Shown here: positions 5,292 to 33,275 of the stretch, piece by piece
Layout: every line of letters begins with the position of its first letter
How positions within the stretch are numbered: the first letter of the stretch is position 1
From: Verrucomicrobiota bacterium
GTDB taxonomy: Bacteria; Verrucomicrobiota; Verrucomicrobiia; Chthoniobacterales; UBA10450
Length of the DNA: 33,782 nucleotides
Assembly: GCA_003220155.1 (NCBI GenBank)
Contig: QHRO01000241.1
Location: 1-33,782, forward strand
Direction of reading: 5' to 3'
Notes under the pieces: model-generated
Seen by the model: only the letters and a program-made list of their open reading frames with translations
Databases searched by the model: none
What the model was told of the DNA's origin: nothing
Translations under genes and position numbers: made by a program

Positions 5292-5314
5292 GATTTCGCA
5301 CGATAAGCGAAATC
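5292..5314. repeat. Perfect hairpin upstream of queF
   Basis: GATTTCGC-acgataa-GCGAAATC is an 8-bp stem with a 7-nt loop. The loop holds the TAA at 5304-5306, which interrupts the queF frame. It may be a small inserted palindrome or a leader structure. It does not match the preQ1 riboswitch consensus as I know it. Confidence 0.5.
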
Positions 5315-5378
5315 GGCACGCCTAACCCTGCTCGGGCGGAGCGAGGCACATGTTCCCGCTTCGCCCGCGGAAGCGACA

Positions 5379-5780
5379 TTGGAAACCTTTCCAAATCCAG
5401 CCCGACGCAACTACAGGATTCATTTTGAAACGTCGGATTTCACTTCGCTTTGTCCGGTAACCGGACAGGCAGATTTCGCCAAAATCGAGATCGATTACAC
5501 CCCGGGCAAGCTTTGTATCGAAAGCAAATCTCTAAAATTTTATCTGGCCTCATTTCGCACCGAGCGCGGGTTCAACGAAGCGATCACGAACCGCATACTC
5601 GATGATTTCGTTCGCGCCTGCGAACCACGTGAAGCAAACATCACCGCCTCCTTTTCCGCGCGCGGTGGAATTGCGCTGACGGTCCGAGCGAGTTTTCCGG
5701 ATCGCTCGGTAGGGCGAGACTCTGTCGAGCCGGCGAAGATCGACGGCTCCGCAGAGCGTCATCCTCCCGCCGGGAGATGA
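5379..5780 (+). CDS. queF: NADPH-dependent 7-cyano-7-deazaguanine reductase (QueF), start uncertain
   Basis: Reduces preQ0 to preQ1 in queuosine synthesis. The core is unmistakable: [13 protein letters not shown] has the thioimide-forming Cys (residue 25) and the Asp seven residues later. [15 protein letters not shown] carries the ESKS substrate-binding motif, and [13 protein letters not shown] ends the fold. The nearest canonical start is TTG at 5379 (METFPNP). However, the same frame reads on upstream from 5307 as [20 protein letters not shown], which looks like the family N-terminus, and it has no ATG, GTG or TTG before a TAA at 5304. The true start may be a rare codon such as CTG at 5328, or the gene may be damaged there. 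The C-terminal tail [19 protein letters not shown] appears to be repeat-derived. The stop overlaps the queC start (ATGA), supporting coupled expression. Confidence 0.85.
5708..5772. repeat. Repeat-like palindrome forming the queF 3' end
   Basis: GGTAGGGCGAGACTCTGTCG and AGCC form the left arm; GGCTCCGCAGAGCGTCATCC and TCCCGCC form the imperfectly complementary right arm. It encodes the non-conserved tail of QueF. No second copy is present in this window; I recognise this arm from related genomes only by memory. Confidence 0.5.
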
Positions 5781-6499
5781 AACGTGCCGTTGTTTTGCTG
5801 AGCGGCGGTCTCGACTCGGCAACGAGCCTGGCGATCGCGAAGGAGGAGGGCTATGAAGTTTTCGCGCTCTCCTTTCGTTACGGGCAGCGCCACGAGATTG
5901 AGCTCGGCTCCGCTGAACGAGTCGCCAAATCTCTTGGCGTCAGCGAGCACCGGGTGATCGAGATAGATTTGCGCGGGTTTGGCGGTTCGGCCTTAACCGA
6001 TGCGATCGAAGTTCCAAAAAATCGTGGCGCAGACGAGATGGCGAGCGGAATTCCCGTTACCTACGTCCCGGCGCGGAACACAATCTTCCTGAGCTACGCT
6101 TTGGCCTGGGCCGAAGTGATCGGGGCGCACGATATTTTCATCGGAGTGAACGCGCTGGACTACAGCGGATACCCTGATTGCCGGCCGGAATTCATCACTC
6201 AATTCGAAAAACTGGCGCGCCTGGCCACGAAAGCCGGCGTGGAGGGAACGCGTTACCAGATTCATGCACCGCTAATTGAAATGACAAAGGCCCAAATCAT
6301 TCGCAAAGGGGCAAAGCTCGGCGTCCAATTCTCGTTAACAACGAGTTGTTATGATCCGACGCCAGACGGCCGGGCGTGTGGCGAGTGCGATTCGTGTTTG
6401 TTGCGACGGAAAGGTTTTCGTGAGGCGGGCGTCGAAGACCCGACTCGCTATGCCCGTCATCCCGAGCTTAAGCGAAGGATCCCGCTGCGGAAACTCTAA
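5777..6499 (+). CDS. queC: 7-cyano-7-deazaguanine synthase
   Basis: Converts 7-carboxy-7-deazaguanine to preQ0 using ATP and ammonia, the step just before QueF. The PP-loop ATPase motif is SGGLDS (residues 9-14). [33 protein letters not shown] and [18 protein letters not shown] are family blocks. The zinc site is C191, C201, C204 and C207 in [17 protein letters not shown]. Length is 240 residues. The last 14 ([14 protein letters not shown]) are read from a family A repeat arm at 6456-6490 and replace the usual short C-terminus. The start overlaps the queF stop by 4 bp. The other preQ0 genes (queD, queE, folE) are not in this window. Confidence 0.96.
6456..6490. repeat. Family A repeat arm forming the queC C-terminus (A3)
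   Basis: GTCATCCCGAGCTTAAGCGA then AGGATCCCGCTGCGG matches the left arm of A1, A2 and A4. No matching right arm follows directly, so this looks like a half element. The queC stop lies 7 nt beyond it. Confidence 0.8.
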
Positions 6500-6575
6500 G
6501 CTAATTTCAACGAGGTGCCGCGACGGACCGCGCACGTTCTTGGATTATTTCCGAAACTCCACAAAAGCAACGCCC

Positions 6576-6690
6576 GTCATCCCGAGCGCAAGCGAGGGAC
6601 CTCCCACAAGCTCCACTGGTCACCCAAGCTTTCCTGTGTGATCCAATCCACAATACGGAGGCCCCTCGGGTCTGCGCGACTCGGGATGAC
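6576..6690. repeat. Palindromic repeat family A, full copy (A4)
   Basis: It begins GTCATCCCGAGCGCAAGCGA and ends GCGCGACTCGGGATGAC, with the family centre CCCAAGCTTTCC. It lies between the convergent queC and NlpC/P60 genes, where a hairpin could terminate both. Confidence 0.85.
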
Positions 6691-11086: not shown

Positions 11087-11166
11087 TTTGGAGGGGAATT
11101 GAGGCTGGATTTTAAACCGATGAAAAGCTTCGCCGTGTGGCATATCTCCTGCGCGCACATGATTCG

Positions 11167-14100
11167 ATGGCTCCCGGTCGCATCACAGAGCAATCTCATA
11201 GCGGACCCGCGCCCCCCAAACGGTTTTCCACTATCCGATGGCTCGGCGGCATCGCCGCTACGGCGGCGATCTACTTCGTAGCAGGCAGGTTAGCGCTTCT
11301 CCTGGCAATTCCCCCCGGCTATGCAACGGCGGTCTGGCCGGCGGCTGGTCTCGCACTCGGCTGCATCCTTCTATTCGGCAATCGTGCCTGGCCGGGCGTG
11401 ATCATCGGATCTTTTCTTGTCAATTTTTGGACGTCGCTCGATACGGCCACCTTTGGCGGGATCGTAAAATCGGTCACGGTCCCGGCCTTAATCGCCGGGG
11501 CCGCAGCTTTACAGGCCCTAGCAGGAGCGTTCTTGGTGCGCCATTACGTCGGGATACGAACAGCGTTGGCCACTGAGAAGGAGGTTGCCCACTTTTCTCT
11601 GGTTGCATTGGCGAGCTGCCTCATCACGTCCACCTGCGCCGTAACAACCCTTTGGTTCGCCCGCATTGTTTCTTCCGCCGATTTCTTAACGAACTGGGTT
11701 ACCTGGTACGTGGGCGATTCAATCGGCACCCTGATCTTCGCCCCGCTCGTCCTGATCTGGACCTTCCGGACCGCGGATTGGCGCCGTAAGCTTTCCGTTA
11801 CGCTACCGATGACCTTCACCTTTGCCGTGGTAGTGGCTCTCTTTTTCCAGACCAATCGATGGGAACAAGCGCGAATCAAGATGGAGTTTGAGCAGCGGAC
11901 CCAGAATCTCAGCCAAAAACTCCAGAGCGACTTTGATAGTTATCTCGACGTCCTGCGCTCAATACAGAACTTTTTTGCAAGCTCACCCGCAGTGAGCCAA
12001 GGCAGTTTTCGCTCGTTTGTGGCGAGAGACATCTCCGATCACCCCGGAATCCAATCGCTGTCGTGGAATGCACGAGTCCCCCAGGCTAAAGTGTCGGCTT
12101 TTGTCGAAGCGGCCCGCCGCGATGGGCTTGGAACTTTTCAGCCGACCGAGCGCGATGCGCAGCAAAAACTGATTCCGGCGGCTCAGCGTGAGGAGTACAT
12201 TGTCATCCGCTACATCGAGCCCCTGTTTGGGAATGAAAGGGCGCTCGGATTTGATATCGCTTGCGATCCGATCCGGCGCCAGGCGTTCGAGTGGGCCAGA
12301 GATAAGGGAGAAGCCCGCGCTACCAAACAAACCGAACTCATTCAGGAGAAGGGCACAGCGCCTGGCTTCGTGGTCTACTTGCCAATCTACACCAACGGCC
12401 TTTCTCACGATACAGTCGAAGAGCGGCAAAAGCGATTGGAAGGCTACGTCGCCGCAATTTTTCGAATCGGGGACGTGATAGCTCAATCGCTTAAGGGAGT
12501 CGATCAAAACGGCCTCCGATTGCGATTTCTCGATCAGAACGCAGCCTCGACAAAGCAGATTCTTTTCCAGAATTCGACCGAGCGCGCGAAGCCCGCAGTT
12601 TTGCATATGGAAACAAGCATTGAAATGGCTGGCCGAAAATGGTCGTTGGAATCCGGCCTCTCGCCTGAGTATTTGCTCACCCACCGCGCCTGGCAGTCGT
12701 GGAGCGTGCCTGCTGTCGCTTTGCTCTTTACCGGATTACTTGGTGCATTTCTCCTTGTCGTCACCGGACATCGCCAACGCGACGAAATTTTGGTCGCGGA
12801 ACGGACGCACGAACTGGTTGCGGCCAACGCAATGCTACATCGCGAGATCGCTGAACGCTCAGTCGCAGAGAATGGGCTGCGCGTTTCGGAGGCGAAACTG
12901 CGCTCTGTCACCCACTCCATCGGCGACGCGATTGTCTCAGCGGATGACAGTGGAAACATCGTTTTTTGGAATCCCGGAGCCGAAGCAATTTTTGGCTATA
13001 ACGAAAAGGAGGCAATCGGGAAATCACTCAACACCATTATTCCTCAGCGGTACCACGCCATGCACCGCGAGACTATCTCGCGCCTCAAAGCCGGAGGGGA
13101 AACACGCGTCGTCGCTAAAACGATCGAGCTCGAGGGCTTGAGAAAAGATGGCGCGGAATTTCCGATCGAGCTCACCCTCTCCTCATGGAAAACAAACCAG
13201 GGCCAGTTTTACACGGGAATTCTGCGGGACATTACCAGACGCAAACAAGCTGAAGACGCCCTCAAGTTTAGCGAGTCGCGTTTGGCGGAAGCACAAAGAG
13301 TCGCTCATGTCGGAAGCTGGGAATGGGATGTGGCCACCAGGCTGGTGTTCTGGTCGGAGGAGCAGTACCGGCTATTTGGGTTCGCGCCGGACGAATTCCC
13401 GGCCAGCTACGATCGTTTTATGGCCTCCGTTCATCCGGACGACCGGAAGCGAGTGCGCAAGTGGTTAAAGAAATTAGTGGTGGGCCATGAATCCACCGGG
13501 ATCGAGTGCCGGATTATTTTGCCAAACGGCGAGACCCGGCTCCTGCATACCCTGGCCCGTACGGTCTTAAGCATTACCGGCAAGGTCGTCCGAATCGTTG
13601 GAACGTCGCAGGACATTACCGAGCGCAGCAAGGCCGATCAAAAATTCAAATCGCTGCTCGAATCCGCTCCCGATGCCATTGTGATCGTCAACGGCGAGGG
13701 AACGATCGTGTTGGTGAATTCGCAGGCAGAAAAAATCTTCGGCTACCAGCGCGAGGAACTGCTAGGAAAAGAAATCGAAGTCCTGGTCCCGAAACGTTTT
13801 CATGGCAAGGATCCCGGCAATCGACGCGACTTTTTCAAAAATCCCCGCAGCCGTGAAATGGGCGCCGGGCTCGACCTGTTTGGCGCTCGCAAGGATGGGA
13901 AGGAGTTTCCGATCGAGATTAGCCTCAGCCCACTCGAGACCAACGAGGGCATCCTGGCGATAGCCGCAATCCGCGACACCACTGATCGCAAACGCGTCGA
14001 ACGCGAGTTACATACCGCCAAGGAGGAGGCGGAGGGAGCGAACCGAGCCAAGAGCGAGTTTCTTTCCCGCATGAGCCACGAATTGCGCACGCCGCTAAAC

Positions 14101-15225
14101 GCAATTCTTGGATTTGGCCAGCTCATTGAAAAACAGAGTCCAGCCGGGGCCCTTCGCATCCGTGCCGGCCATATCACTGGTGCCGGTCGTCATCTCCTTA
14201 ACTTGATCAACGAAATCCTGGATATCAGCCGGATCGAAGCTGGCGCGATGCAGTTGTCCTTGGAGCCGGTTAATCTCGCTGACGTTTTGGATGAAGCGCT
14301 TGATATAATGCGGCCACTCGCGGCCGAGCGCGGGATTGAGTTTAGCGCCCCCGTCCGTATCGATCCGCCGGTCCATGTTTTGGCCGACCTTCAGCGTTTC
14401 AAGCAGGTCTTGCTTAACCTGTTCTCGAACGCCGTAAAGTACAGTCCAAAGAAGAGCAAAGTTTCAATCTCGTATCGATCCGCCGGCGAAGGCACCATGC
14501 GGATCGTGATTAGCGACATGGGTGCGGGCATTGCCAGTGAAAAATTGTCGCGACTGTTTACGCCGTTTGATCGCCTGGGGGCGGAGCAGTCGGCAGTGGA
14601 GGGAACTGGCCTCGGCCTTGCTCTCTCTGCCCGTATCATGCATGCCATGGGGGGCGGTATCGGGGCCAGCAGCGCGATTGGACGCGGCAGCACTTTTTGG
14701 GTTGATCTTCCCCGGGCCGAGCCGCCAGCAATCACGCAGCCGGAAGACAATGAGGATGAACCCCTGCCGGCCCGGGACCCCGCTGCCGGCAAGCGCACCA
14801 TCCTTTATATTGAGGACAACCTTTCCAATCTCAATCTCGTCCAGGAAATTCTTCGCCAGCAACCGCAGGTCGAACTGCTGAGCGCGATGCAGGGCCGGCT
14901 TGGCCTCGACTTAGCGCGCAAACATTCACCCGATCTCATCTTACTCGATATCCATCTGCCCGACTTGAACGGATGGGAGGTCTTTTCGCAATTGCGGGGT
15001 GAGGAAACAACGCGAAACATCCCGGTCATTGTCATTAGTGCCGATGCGACCGCGCGACAGGTTCAACAGTTCATGACTGCCGGCGCCCGCGATTACCTGA
15101 CCAAACCACTCGACGTCACAAAATTTTCCCGAGTGATCGAGGAATCGGCTTGGCCATCGACCGATTCAAAGACGCTGATTCAAAAAGCGAATGGAAAAGA
15201 GAATGTAACAGCCAGGAAAATATGA
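11167..15225 (+). CDS. Membrane hybrid sensor histidine kinase (MASE1-CHASE-3xPAS-HisKA-HATPase-REC)
   Basis: A 1352-residue kinase, numbered from the ATG at 11167; a GTG at 11137 would add ten residues. Residues 25-230 are a MASE1-like membrane sensor ([20 protein letters not shown]...). About 240-505 is a CHASE-like extracytoplasmic domain ending at a membrane segment (510-533). Three PAS domains follow: 577-690 ([14 protein letters not shown]), 705-820 ([20 protein letters not shown]) and 825-940 ([14 protein letters not shown]), the first and third with FPIEL/FPIEI. The phospho-accepting His is 971 in [19 protein letters not shown]. The ATPase has [17 protein letters not shown] and GTGLGLAL. 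A receiver domain occupies 1208-1325 with Asp 1261 in [15 protein letters not shown]. All catalytic residues are present. It is probably the sensor for the response regulator at 15373. The ligand is unknown. Confidence 0.93.
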
Positions 15226-30517: not shown

Positions 30518-31693
30518 TTGCAATCGCGCCCAAATCGCCGGTCATTGCCGCAGGTGAATCGGACGGCATTGCTCCACATCGTCGAGCGTCTTGAGGGGTT
30601 GCTCGGAAAATTACCAACGGCGATCCAAAAACCGGTGTTGCACGAATTAACGCCGTTGAAGGAACTTTTTTTGCAGCAACGCCCGCCGCGTCTCCTCCTC
30701 GCCGGAGCGGGGCGCTGGCCCATGCCGCAAGTTGTGAATCTTCTTTTTAACGGAGTCGCGGTTGAAGAATCCAGCCAAGTCGTGTTCGAGATCTTTCGCT
30801 GGCAAGACATTGAGATCAAAGATCGAGGCGCCATTTCCGTACTCGATGCCCGTGGCGCCGATGACAAAGCGGAAAAAACGATTCGCCGAGAACTCGAACG
30901 CGCGTCAGCAGACGCGATCATCATTTTGAGCGACGCCTCCGAAGGCCGCAGCAAGGTAAAACGAAGCGCGGAAAATGGCAGCGAGTGTGTGCACTGGAAT
31001 GATGCCGTGCGCAAAGACGCCGGCATTGTAGCGATCCACCTCGAACCGACTCCAACCGCTCGCCACAATGGGGAACCGGCCAGGATGGATTGGTCGGAAA
31101 AAATCCAGCCGCAATTGCACGGTCGCGTCTGGGGCGGGTTCGAATTTTCCGGCGAATCAGGACACGCCTTGGCCGACCGGGCGGCGTCACATCAATTCGT
31201 TTCCGTTCTTGCGAAAAAGTTACCGAACGAGTGCCGGGTCGAAATCGTGCACATATCGGGCGACCGCGACGCCCAACGCGAAATCGCAAACATTCTCATC
31301 AAATCGACCAGCGCGATCTGCACGGCAGTCGGCGCGCAGCCAATTCCGCTGGCGGACCTTCCCGTTCTCACCACCTTGCAGTTGGTGATGGTCTCCGGGA
31401 TCATGTATCTGAGCGGACGCGAGCGGAGCCTGCGCGCCGCCACGGAATTTGTCGGCGCGCTCGGGGCCAACGTCGGGGCCGGAATGCTACTGCGCGAGGG
31501 CGCTCGCGCGCTCCTGAAATTCTTTCCGGGTTGGGGAAATGTCGTCTGTGGCATGGTGGCAGGCGCGGGCACCTACGCTATCGGGCATGCAGCATCCGCT
31601 TATTTCCTGGAGGGGGTGACGCTAGGTGAGGCGCGTCGCACCTATTTGAAAGGACGAAAACGCCGGAAGTCAGCCATGCTCCAGCTGAAATGA
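30518..31693 (+). CDS. DUF697 membrane-associated protein with a degenerate GTPase domain
   Basis: The C-terminal part (about residues 255-380) is a DUF697 domain: ILIKSTSAICTAVGAQPIPL, ADLPVLTTLQLVMVSGIMYL, ATEFVGALGANVGAGMLLRE and FFPGWGNVVCGMVAGAGTYA. Hydrophobic stretches there suggest membrane contact. In relatives this domain follows a GTPase domain. Here residues 55-200 keep the layout (PPRLLLAGAG..., then ISVLDARG, then AIIILSDAS), but the P-loop reads AGAGRWPMPQ without the GK(S/T) core, and no NKxD is seen. DARG keeps only the DxxG pattern. It is probably unable to bind or hydrolyse GTP normally. The start is uncertain: TTG at 30518, TTG at 30545 or GTG at 30554; there is no ATG. 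It is divergent from tkt, 48 bp away. Confidence 0.8.
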   Translation: MQSRPNRRSLPQVNRTALLHIVERLEGLLGKLPTAIQKPVLHELTPLKELFLQQRPPRLLLAGAGRWPMPQVVNLLFNGVAVEESSQVVFEIFRWQDIEIKDRGAISVLDARGADDKAEKTIRRELERASADAIIILSDASEGRSKVKRSAENGSECVHWNDAVRKDAGIVAIHLEPTPTARHNGEPARMDWSEKIQPQLHGRVWGGFEFSGESGHALADRAASHQFVSVLAKKLPNECRVEIVHISGDRDAQREIANILIKSTSAICTAVGAQPIPLADLPVLTTLQLVMVSGIMYLSGRERSLRAATEFVGALGANVGAGMLLREGARALLKFFPGWGNVVCGMVAGAGTYAIGHAASAYFLEGVTLGEARRTYLKGRKRRKSAMLQLK

Positions 31694-31937: not shown

Positions 31938-33275
31938 ATGAATCTTTCGCAGATTCGCGCAGCGCTCGACAGCGCCGGCGTGCGACCGGCGAAAAAACTG
32001 GGACAGAATTTCCTGCACGATCAAAACCTGGCGCGCTGGATTGTCCAGCAGGCCCAGATCAGCCCGGAAGATTTTGTTCTGGAAATTGGTCCCGGGCTTG
32101 GCGCCCTCACCAGTGAGATTCTGAAGCGCGGCGCGCGTCTGCTGGCGTTGGAAAAAGATGCGCGGCTGGCGAATTTTTTGCGCGAAAAATTTCACCATCC
32201 GCGATTCGAACTTCGCTATTGCGATGCGCTCGATTTCGACACGCGGATTCTTTTCGCCGAACGCAACGTCAAAGTGATCGGGAACCTTCCGTATTACATT
32301 GCGAGCCAGCTGCTCTTCCGCTTCGTGGATTTTCCGAATTGTACCTCATTGGCATTGTTTATGTTACAGGAAGAGATGGCGCGGCGCCTCTCGGCGAAAC
32401 CAGGAAACGCCGATTACGGCGCCCTCACGGTGCGGCTGCAACTTCATCATCACGTCGAGTACCTGCGAAAAATCCCGCGCACCGTTTTTATTCCGCAGCC
32501 CGAAGTCGCTTCGGCAATTGTTCGGTTTACCCCGCGCGACGAAAAACGGATTGGAATTTTCGATTACGAAGTATTTGGCGACATCGTGAAGCACGGGTTT
32601 TCGCAGCGGCGAAAGCAATTGCGAAAACTACTCGCCGGTCAGATTGACAACTGGGAAAGCATTTCCAAAAAAATTTCGGTTCCACTGACGGCGCGCGCAG
32701 AAGAGCTGTCGTTTGAGCAATGGATCGCGCTGACCAATCTCATCGCTCCGCGCGATGAAAAAATTGCGTCACAGGCGTCAGCTGAGCGCTTTCCAGTAGT
32801 GGACAAAAATGATCGGCAAATTGGCACCGCCAGTCGCTTGGAAGTCCATGAGAATAACTTCCGTCATCGCGCTGTCCACATCCTCATTTTCAATCATGCC
32901 GGGGAGGTACTTTTGCAAAAGCGTTCTCCCTGGAAAGACCGGCATCCCCTGCTCTGGGATTCAAGCGCAGCGGGTCACGTGGAAGCTAACGAAGACTATG
33001 ACGAGGCCGCCGGGCGCGAACTCATGGAAGAACTTGGAGCAAGCGTGAGTCTGGATTGCATTGGAAAGCTGCCGGCGTCGGCAAAAACCGGTCAGGAATT
33101 CATTATGATCTATCGGGGAGAACACGATGGGCCATTTGCCTTTCCATGCGAAGAAATTAGCGCAGTCGAGTTCTTTCCGATCGAAATCGTGGAGCGATGG
33201 GTGGCAAATAAGCCCGAGGATTTTGCGCCAGGATTTCTCGAATGCTGGCGTTTATTCAACGCCATTTCGTCTTAG
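31938..33275 (+). CDS. rsmA: 16S rRNA dimethyladenosine transferase RsmA (KsgA) fused to a Nudix hydrolase
   Basis: Residues 1-270 are RsmA, which dimethylates two adjacent adenines near the 3' end of 16S rRNA. Motifs are KKLGQNFLHDQNLARWIV, the SAM site VLEIGPGLGALTSEIL (47-62), LEKDARLANFL, the catalytic NLPYYIASQLLF (116-127), and FIPQPEVASAIVRF with FSQRRKQLRKLL. After a short linker a second domain (about 284-445) begins FPVVDKNDRQIGTASRLEVH and continues HRAVHILIFNHAGEVLLQKR. It has a complete Nudix box, G346 to A368 (GHVEANEDYDEAAGRELMEE then LGA), with all G, E, REL and EE positions kept. The domain resembles the isopentenyl-diphosphate isomerase/YfcD type of Nudix protein. The frame is continuous with no stop or restart signal between the parts. 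The Nudix substrate cannot be read from sequence. Confidence 0.93.
   Translation: MNLSQIRAALDSAGVRPAKKLGQNFLHDQNLARWIVQQAQISPEDFVLEIGPGLGALTSEILKRGARLLALEKDARLANFLREKFHHPRFELRYCDALDFDTRILFAERNVKVIGNLPYYIASQLLFRFVDFPNCTSLALFMLQEEMARRLSAKPGNADYGALTVRLQLHHHVEYLRKIPRTVFIPQPEVASAIVRFTPRDEKRIGIFDYEVFGDIVKHGFSQRRKQLRKLLAGQIDNWESISKKISVPLTARAEELSFEQWIALTNLIAPRDEKIASQASAERFPVVDKNDRQIGTASRLEVHENNFRHRAVHILIFNHAGEVLLQKRSPWKDRHPLLWDSSAAGHVEANEDYDEAAGRELMEELGASVSLDCIGKLPASAKTGQEFIMIYRGEHDGPFAFPCEEISAVEFFPIEIVERWVANKPEDFAPGFLECWRLFNAISS

Follow-up and report, generated by a model that had tools for sequence, protein, structure and literature searches.

A single open frame in a Verrucomicrobiota genome encodes a complete RsmA (KsgA) 16S rRNA dimethyltransferase joined to a complete Nudix domain, and this union is held throughout the order to which the genome belongs. 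RsmA/KsgA, one of the most conserved enzymes of rRNA modification, normally occurs as a protein by itself. We put the probability at about 0.55 that the fusion is a bifunctional enzyme, the only RsmA/KsgA of the cell combined with a diphosphohydrolase, the two having been kept together because their activities are used jointly. Two orders share this fixed Nudix partner and show signs that it was joined repeatedly, a pattern which suggests that selection tied late maturation of the 30S subunit to the hydrolysis of a diphosphate. A literature search for KsgA or RsmA with Nudix returned no relevant paper, although protein databases may list the architecture, and the main text of a transposon paper on V. 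spinosum names neither an rsmA nor a nudix gene.

The fused frame

The window analysed here is the whole stretch of 33,782 nucleotides of contig QHRO01000241.1, from a 3.35-Mb draft genome. The rsmA–nudix fusion gene (445 codons plus stop) occupies positions 31938–33275 of the forward strand, on which all features of the window described below also lie, and its translation has a stop codon only at the end. Residues 1–270 (31938–32747) form the RsmA/KsgA 16S rRNA (adenine1518/1519-N6)-dimethyltransferase domain, with Pfam RrnaAD (PF00398) matching residues 19–269 above its cut-off (E = 1.2e-57) and the NCBIfam equivalog TIGR00755 (ksgA) scoring 248.8 bits, above its cut-off of 171. In the SAM-binding motif I, EIGPGLG (residues 49–55; 32082–32102), E49, G51, G53 and G55 are invariant among 35 fused proteins, as are N116, P118 and Y119 in the catalytic motif IV, NLPYY (residues 116–120; 32283–32297), where L117 is nearly so. 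Further RsmA motifs are GQNFLHD (22–28) and GFSQRRK (220–226). No second RsmA was found in the source genome.

The Nudix domain, of the YfcD/IDI-like branch (IDI being type-1 IPP isomerase), spans residues 284–445 (32787–33272). The sequence and fold hallmarks of a Nudix hydrolase are present: the Nudix fold, a PF00293 (NUDIX) match above cut-off at residues 309–418 (E = 3.8e-18) and a canonical box, GHVEANEDYDEAAGRELMEELGA (residues 346–368; 32973–33041), that fits GX5EX7REUXEEXGU exactly. Both active sites are complete, which bears out the preliminary description of this DNA as a 445-codon frame containing a full rRNA dimethyltransferase and a Nudix domain with every box residue in place.

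AlphaFold2, with 34 fused relatives in the input, returned one confident two-domain protein (mean pLDDT of 93.1, pTM of 0.90). Disorder is confined to residues 276–279, the only low-confidence part of an interdomain linker (residues 271–283; 32748–32786) that varies in length and sequence in the alignment. The best Foldseek matches of the full model were all KsgA, Dim1 or TFB1M proteins (for example, 6ift, 3tqs and 7o5h). Modelled alone, the Nudix half (pLDDT of 95.0) matched YfcD, DR_0079 and IPP isomerases, the nearest solved structures being 2fkb (YfcD), 2o5f and 1q27 (DR_0079) and IDI.

Two ways in which the union might have been only apparent had been raised earlier: an internal start near position 32780 that yields a separate Nudix protein, and a stop between the domains. 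No ATG lies near 32780, and around the domain border just two in-frame codons could serve as starts: GTG 32799, which falls within the first Nudix strand and is not preceded by a Shine–Dalgarno sequence, and TTG 32838; a start at TTG 32913 would cut into the Nudix fold. With no credible start codon at the border, we rejected a separate product. The frame is open in 51 of the 58 genomes of the order and in all of the 80 best named loci, and therefore reflects neither chance nor sequencing error; joining by an artefact or frameshift is ruled out.

Distribution and conservation

The search for the RsmA–Nudix architecture covered genomes of the phylum and the best 80 named GTDB loci. Named relatives with the fusion come from Chthoniobacterales and other Verrucomicrobiota and include Chthoniobacter, Candidatus Udaeobacter, Akkermansia, Prosthecobacter, Rubritalea and Verrucomicrobium. 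The 51 fusions of the order include one on a contig that ends within the Nudix half (G003) and one frame that is shown as two pieces (G056); a separate RsmA was seen in none of these 51 genomes, and the remaining 7 contain no convincing RsmA of any kind. In the class sample, the fusion was found in 51 of 141 genomes. Outside the class, among the matches listed for the phylum sample, none covers both halves. Two reduced genomes of 0.9 Mb retain the fusion. This lineage-wide spread goes beyond what the preliminary description contained.

Two observations concern individual assemblies. Four genomes of the order that are 90–96% complete (G037 and G047 of family f2, and G049 and G055) lack a convincing RsmA match, owing either to assembly gaps or to real loss. 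Another assembly (G005) carries two full-length RsmA–Nudix genes, 98% and 59% identical to that of the window (on C26 and C236, respectively); its 7% contamination makes a mixed assembly the likely source of the pair.

Both halves are under strong purifying selection. For pairs with usable dS, among them the two 0.9-Mb genomes, NG86 dN/dS is approximately 0.10–0.19 in either half; individual values are rough, since some pairs have a saturated or zero dS. Mean identity to the window is 56.2% for the Nudix half compared with 50.8% for the RsmA half, and in 113 of 128 fused loci the Nudix half is the better conserved of the two. Conservation of this kind is not what a passive appendage would show.

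History of the joining

With a profile built from the Nudix-half alignment, 63 of 66 class genomes gave a match at E ≤ 1e-20 and 62 of these reached at least 196 bits, compared with at most 165 bits elsewhere in the phylum. As nearly every class genome has one strong match, the Nudix gene belongs to the core gene set of the class and was not acquired recently. When unfused, it directly follows rsmA in the same orientation at 17 loci and otherwise lies elsewhere in the genome. Spacing in the 17 adjacent loci ranges from long overlaps to a separation of 109 nt, with the longest apparent overlaps (−502 and −250) arising partly from the mechanical choice of the longest frame. Seven of the pairs overlap by 4–56 nt, and three 4-nt overlaps are typical of translational coupling. 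The two genes are unlinked in many class lineages, families f20 and f23 among them, and coupling on the chromosome is thus dispensable in parts of the class. One locus, L057 of genome G122 (positions 5292–6583), has separate rsmA and nudix frames that overlap by 31 nt and belongs to the same family as a genome with a fused gene (G148, locus L052); it is a good example of a pre-fusion step.

In the RsmA tree, fused Chthoniobacterales and Verrucomicrobiales form one supported clade, in which no genome was seen with the halves split. Fused family f14 and the fused gene of G148 sit among unfused rows, and the tree requires three changes of the fused state. The Nudix tree agrees with it in outline, both being quick trees. 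An AU test on the RsmA tree rejected a single clade of all fused rows (p = 0.00024), in a set-up that left out the long-branch fused row L039 and some near-copies and in which the fused group was known beforehand. It is therefore probable that the genes were joined repeatedly, which is the simplest account; a single fusion followed by several splits would be a less simple alternative.

This history bears on the strongest alternative to a bifunctional enzyme, which is that unrelated operon neighbours were merely co-expressed, fused through loss of a stop codon and were then tolerated without any joint function. Closely spaced genes can become fused by chance and the product can then persist under neutrality, the adjacent and overlapping genes look like forerunners of the fusion, many other lineages of the class have unlinked copies and a shared pathway is not evident. 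Against this, the gene order has been kept in many families, the fused state is held throughout the order and was probably reached more than once, and the main fused clade is free of split genomes. We regard co-expression alone as a possible explanation, clearly less probable than a functional union.

As functional clues, the neighbouring genes reveal no shared pathway, and only the Nudix gene itself is informative. Upstream of the fusion, a gene for a 391-amino-acid protein (30518–31693) has a weak match to DUF697 and, by eye, a segment that resembles a degenerate GTPase P-loop. Members of its family precede the fusion at 29 loci, in most cases by 24–250 nt where the distance was computed. 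The window also encodes a large hybrid histidine kinase of an ordinary type, with MASE1, CHASE, several PAS domains and one receiver domain (11137–15225).

Affinities and active site of the Nudix half

The preliminary description had suggested a role in RNA-end metabolism, such as decapping, and we consider such a role unlikely. The Nudix half would then act at the ribosome on RNA 5′ ends, stripping them of pyrophosphate or of a nucleotide cap, an idea in keeping with its partner, an RNA-binding ribosome assembly factor, and with the action of some Nudix enzymes on RNA ends. In E. coli, apaH lies in the ksgA operon; ApaH was found above cut-off in none of 74 class genomes. Lineages with and without the fusion lack it equally, so that its absence is not specific to the fusion, and replacement of ApaH by the fusion was set aside as uninformative. 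Sequence and fold group the Nudix half with YfcD, DR_0079 and IDI rather than with RppH or NudC, and no RppH model appears among the best 25 of the 32 NCBIfam matches of the fusion. The Nudix complement of the 0.9-Mb genomes is limited to the fusion and one further protein, for which RppH models top the NCBIfam matches, below their cut-offs. Both the position in the YfcD/IDI branch and the retention of this separate RppH-like protein disfavour an RNA-end role.

Across 167 Nudix domains (131 fused and 36 separate), H304, H310, R311, R329, K333, G346, H347, R360, E361, E364, E365, E387 and E406 are invariant, and H314 is kept in 165. H304 and H310, which with R311 and H314 lie at 32847–32879, align, together with H347 and E387, with the metal ligands H25, H32, H69 and E116 of IDI; R329 and K333 align with the Arg/Lys pair R51 and K55 of IDI. 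At the position of the catalytic Cys67 of IDI the fusion has A345 (32970–32972), and each of the 167 domains has Ala, Ser or Gly there; the E114 position is nearly always Gly or Asp, with Glu in 3. The box has the hydrolase form, RExxEE, in place of RRxxxE in IDI. With most of the IDI metal ligands kept and the Cys absent, we predict diphosphate hydrolysis rather than IPP isomerization, by a hydrolase with an IDI-like metal site.

A domain that binds a metabolite without turnover and thereby regulates RsmA is, on this evidence, very improbable. Non-catalytic Nudix domains typically sit in multidomain proteins, regulatory examples being described in PMC5389931, and the pTM of the model suggests a fixed arrangement of the two domains. 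Pure sensors usually lose the key metal-binding and catalytic residues of the box, which are invariant here.

Least probable of all, and hardly tenable, is an unusual type-1 IPP isomerase, for although NCBIfam models of IDI match below their cut-offs and the counterparts of H25, H32, H69 and E116 are all kept, the equivalog TIGR02150 scores 54.5 bits, short of its cut-off of 105.8, only four of the five metal ligands are found, Cys67 is never present, the E114 position is altered, a canonical hydrolase box replaces the IDI motif, and ispE of the MEP pathway, which yields DMAPP directly, occurs in 11 of 11 genomes tested. The isomerase-type domain proposed in the preliminary description thus holds for ancestry and metal ligands and fails for activity.

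Proposed function

In the bifunctional enzyme that we favour, the N-terminal half would dimethylate A1518 and A1519 of 16S rRNA late in 30S assembly, as predicted from its sequence. The C-terminal half is predicted to be a metal-dependent Nudix diphosphohydrolase that cleaves a small-molecule diphosphate, and would be neither an IPP isomerase nor the RNA pyrophosphohydrolase of the cell. The two genes were probably neighbouring and often overlapping in the class ancestor, and would have been joined at least once and probably two or three times. The join may have been retained because both activities are used together, through equal dosage and delivery to the maturing 30S subunit. Four lines of evidence give good support to a Nudix half that is complete, catalytic-looking and, as suggested earlier from this frame, functionally linked to RsmA: conservation, joining that probably happened repeatedly, adjacency in operons and purifying selection. 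We infer that both halves are active and that their link is functional.

Clearing of a small inhibitory or otherwise unwanted diphosphate is the most likely general kind of activity for the Nudix half. As a guess at its substrate, our first choice would be a short prenyl diphosphate (of the IPP/DMAPP class) or a nucleotide di- or triphosphate; prenyl diphosphates should be available, as ispE is present. A bolder version, which we consider doubtful, is that the Nudix half acts at the maturing 30S subunit by destroying an alarmone, damaged nucleotide or prenyl diphosphate that blocks or reports late assembly, which would make RsmA a metabolic checkpoint in Verrucomicrobiota.

A connection between ribosome finishing and hydrolysis of small phosphate compounds would be an unexpected one, in a large branch of Verrucomicrobiota that includes relatives of Akkermansia. 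The group includes culturable bacteria, Verrucomicrobium and Akkermansia among them, in which the fusion can be tested, and the Nudix partner could open a way into the substrates of the YfcD-type Nudix family.

Comparison with known systems

The RsmA half is the same full-length domain, with the same SAM-binding and catalytic motifs, as RsmA/KsgA of the E. coli and B. subtilis type; known KsgA proteins stand alone, whereas the fusion adds a C-terminal Nudix domain of about 165 residues. A Nudix domain is also part of a larger protein in Arabidopsis AtNUDX3, which is eukaryotic and in which the partner is dipeptidyl peptidase III, not a methyltransferase. The AtNUDX3 Nudix sequence is 32% identical (E = 3e-20) and has the same His and box residues, a likeness that we treat as a lead only. 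AtNUDX3 is reported to convert prenyl diphosphates to monophosphates (PMC6779861, PMC11062433). A bacterial Nudix–M49 fusion that might tie the two together was sought; M49 matches occurred in only four genomes, and two M49 frames inspected whole by eye (L216 and L217) showed no sign of a Nudix domain.

E. coli YfcD (PDB 2fkb) is the closest solved relative of the Nudix half (profile E = 9e-31, TM-score of 0.85–0.90). It lacks counterparts of H304 and H347 in the alignment, and the fusion scores 76.7 bits against the YfcD equivalog NF011922, below the cut-off of 152. Second closest by both profile and fold is DR_0079 of Deinococcus (PDB 1q27 and 2o5f), a Nudix box hydrolase that stands alone, lacks the IDI-like His ligands and has Asn in place of the last Gly of the box; its substrates are cytosine nucleotide di- and triphosphates, as cited in PMC5389931. 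Type-1 IPP isomerase has its fold in common with the Nudix half, as well as the Arg/Lys pair and four of five metal ligands, but the fusion lacks the catalytic Cys and carries a canonical hydrolase box. The novelty lies not in the halves, each a member of a known family, but in their stable union, the evolutionary pattern of that union and an IDI-like hydrolase site without the Cys.
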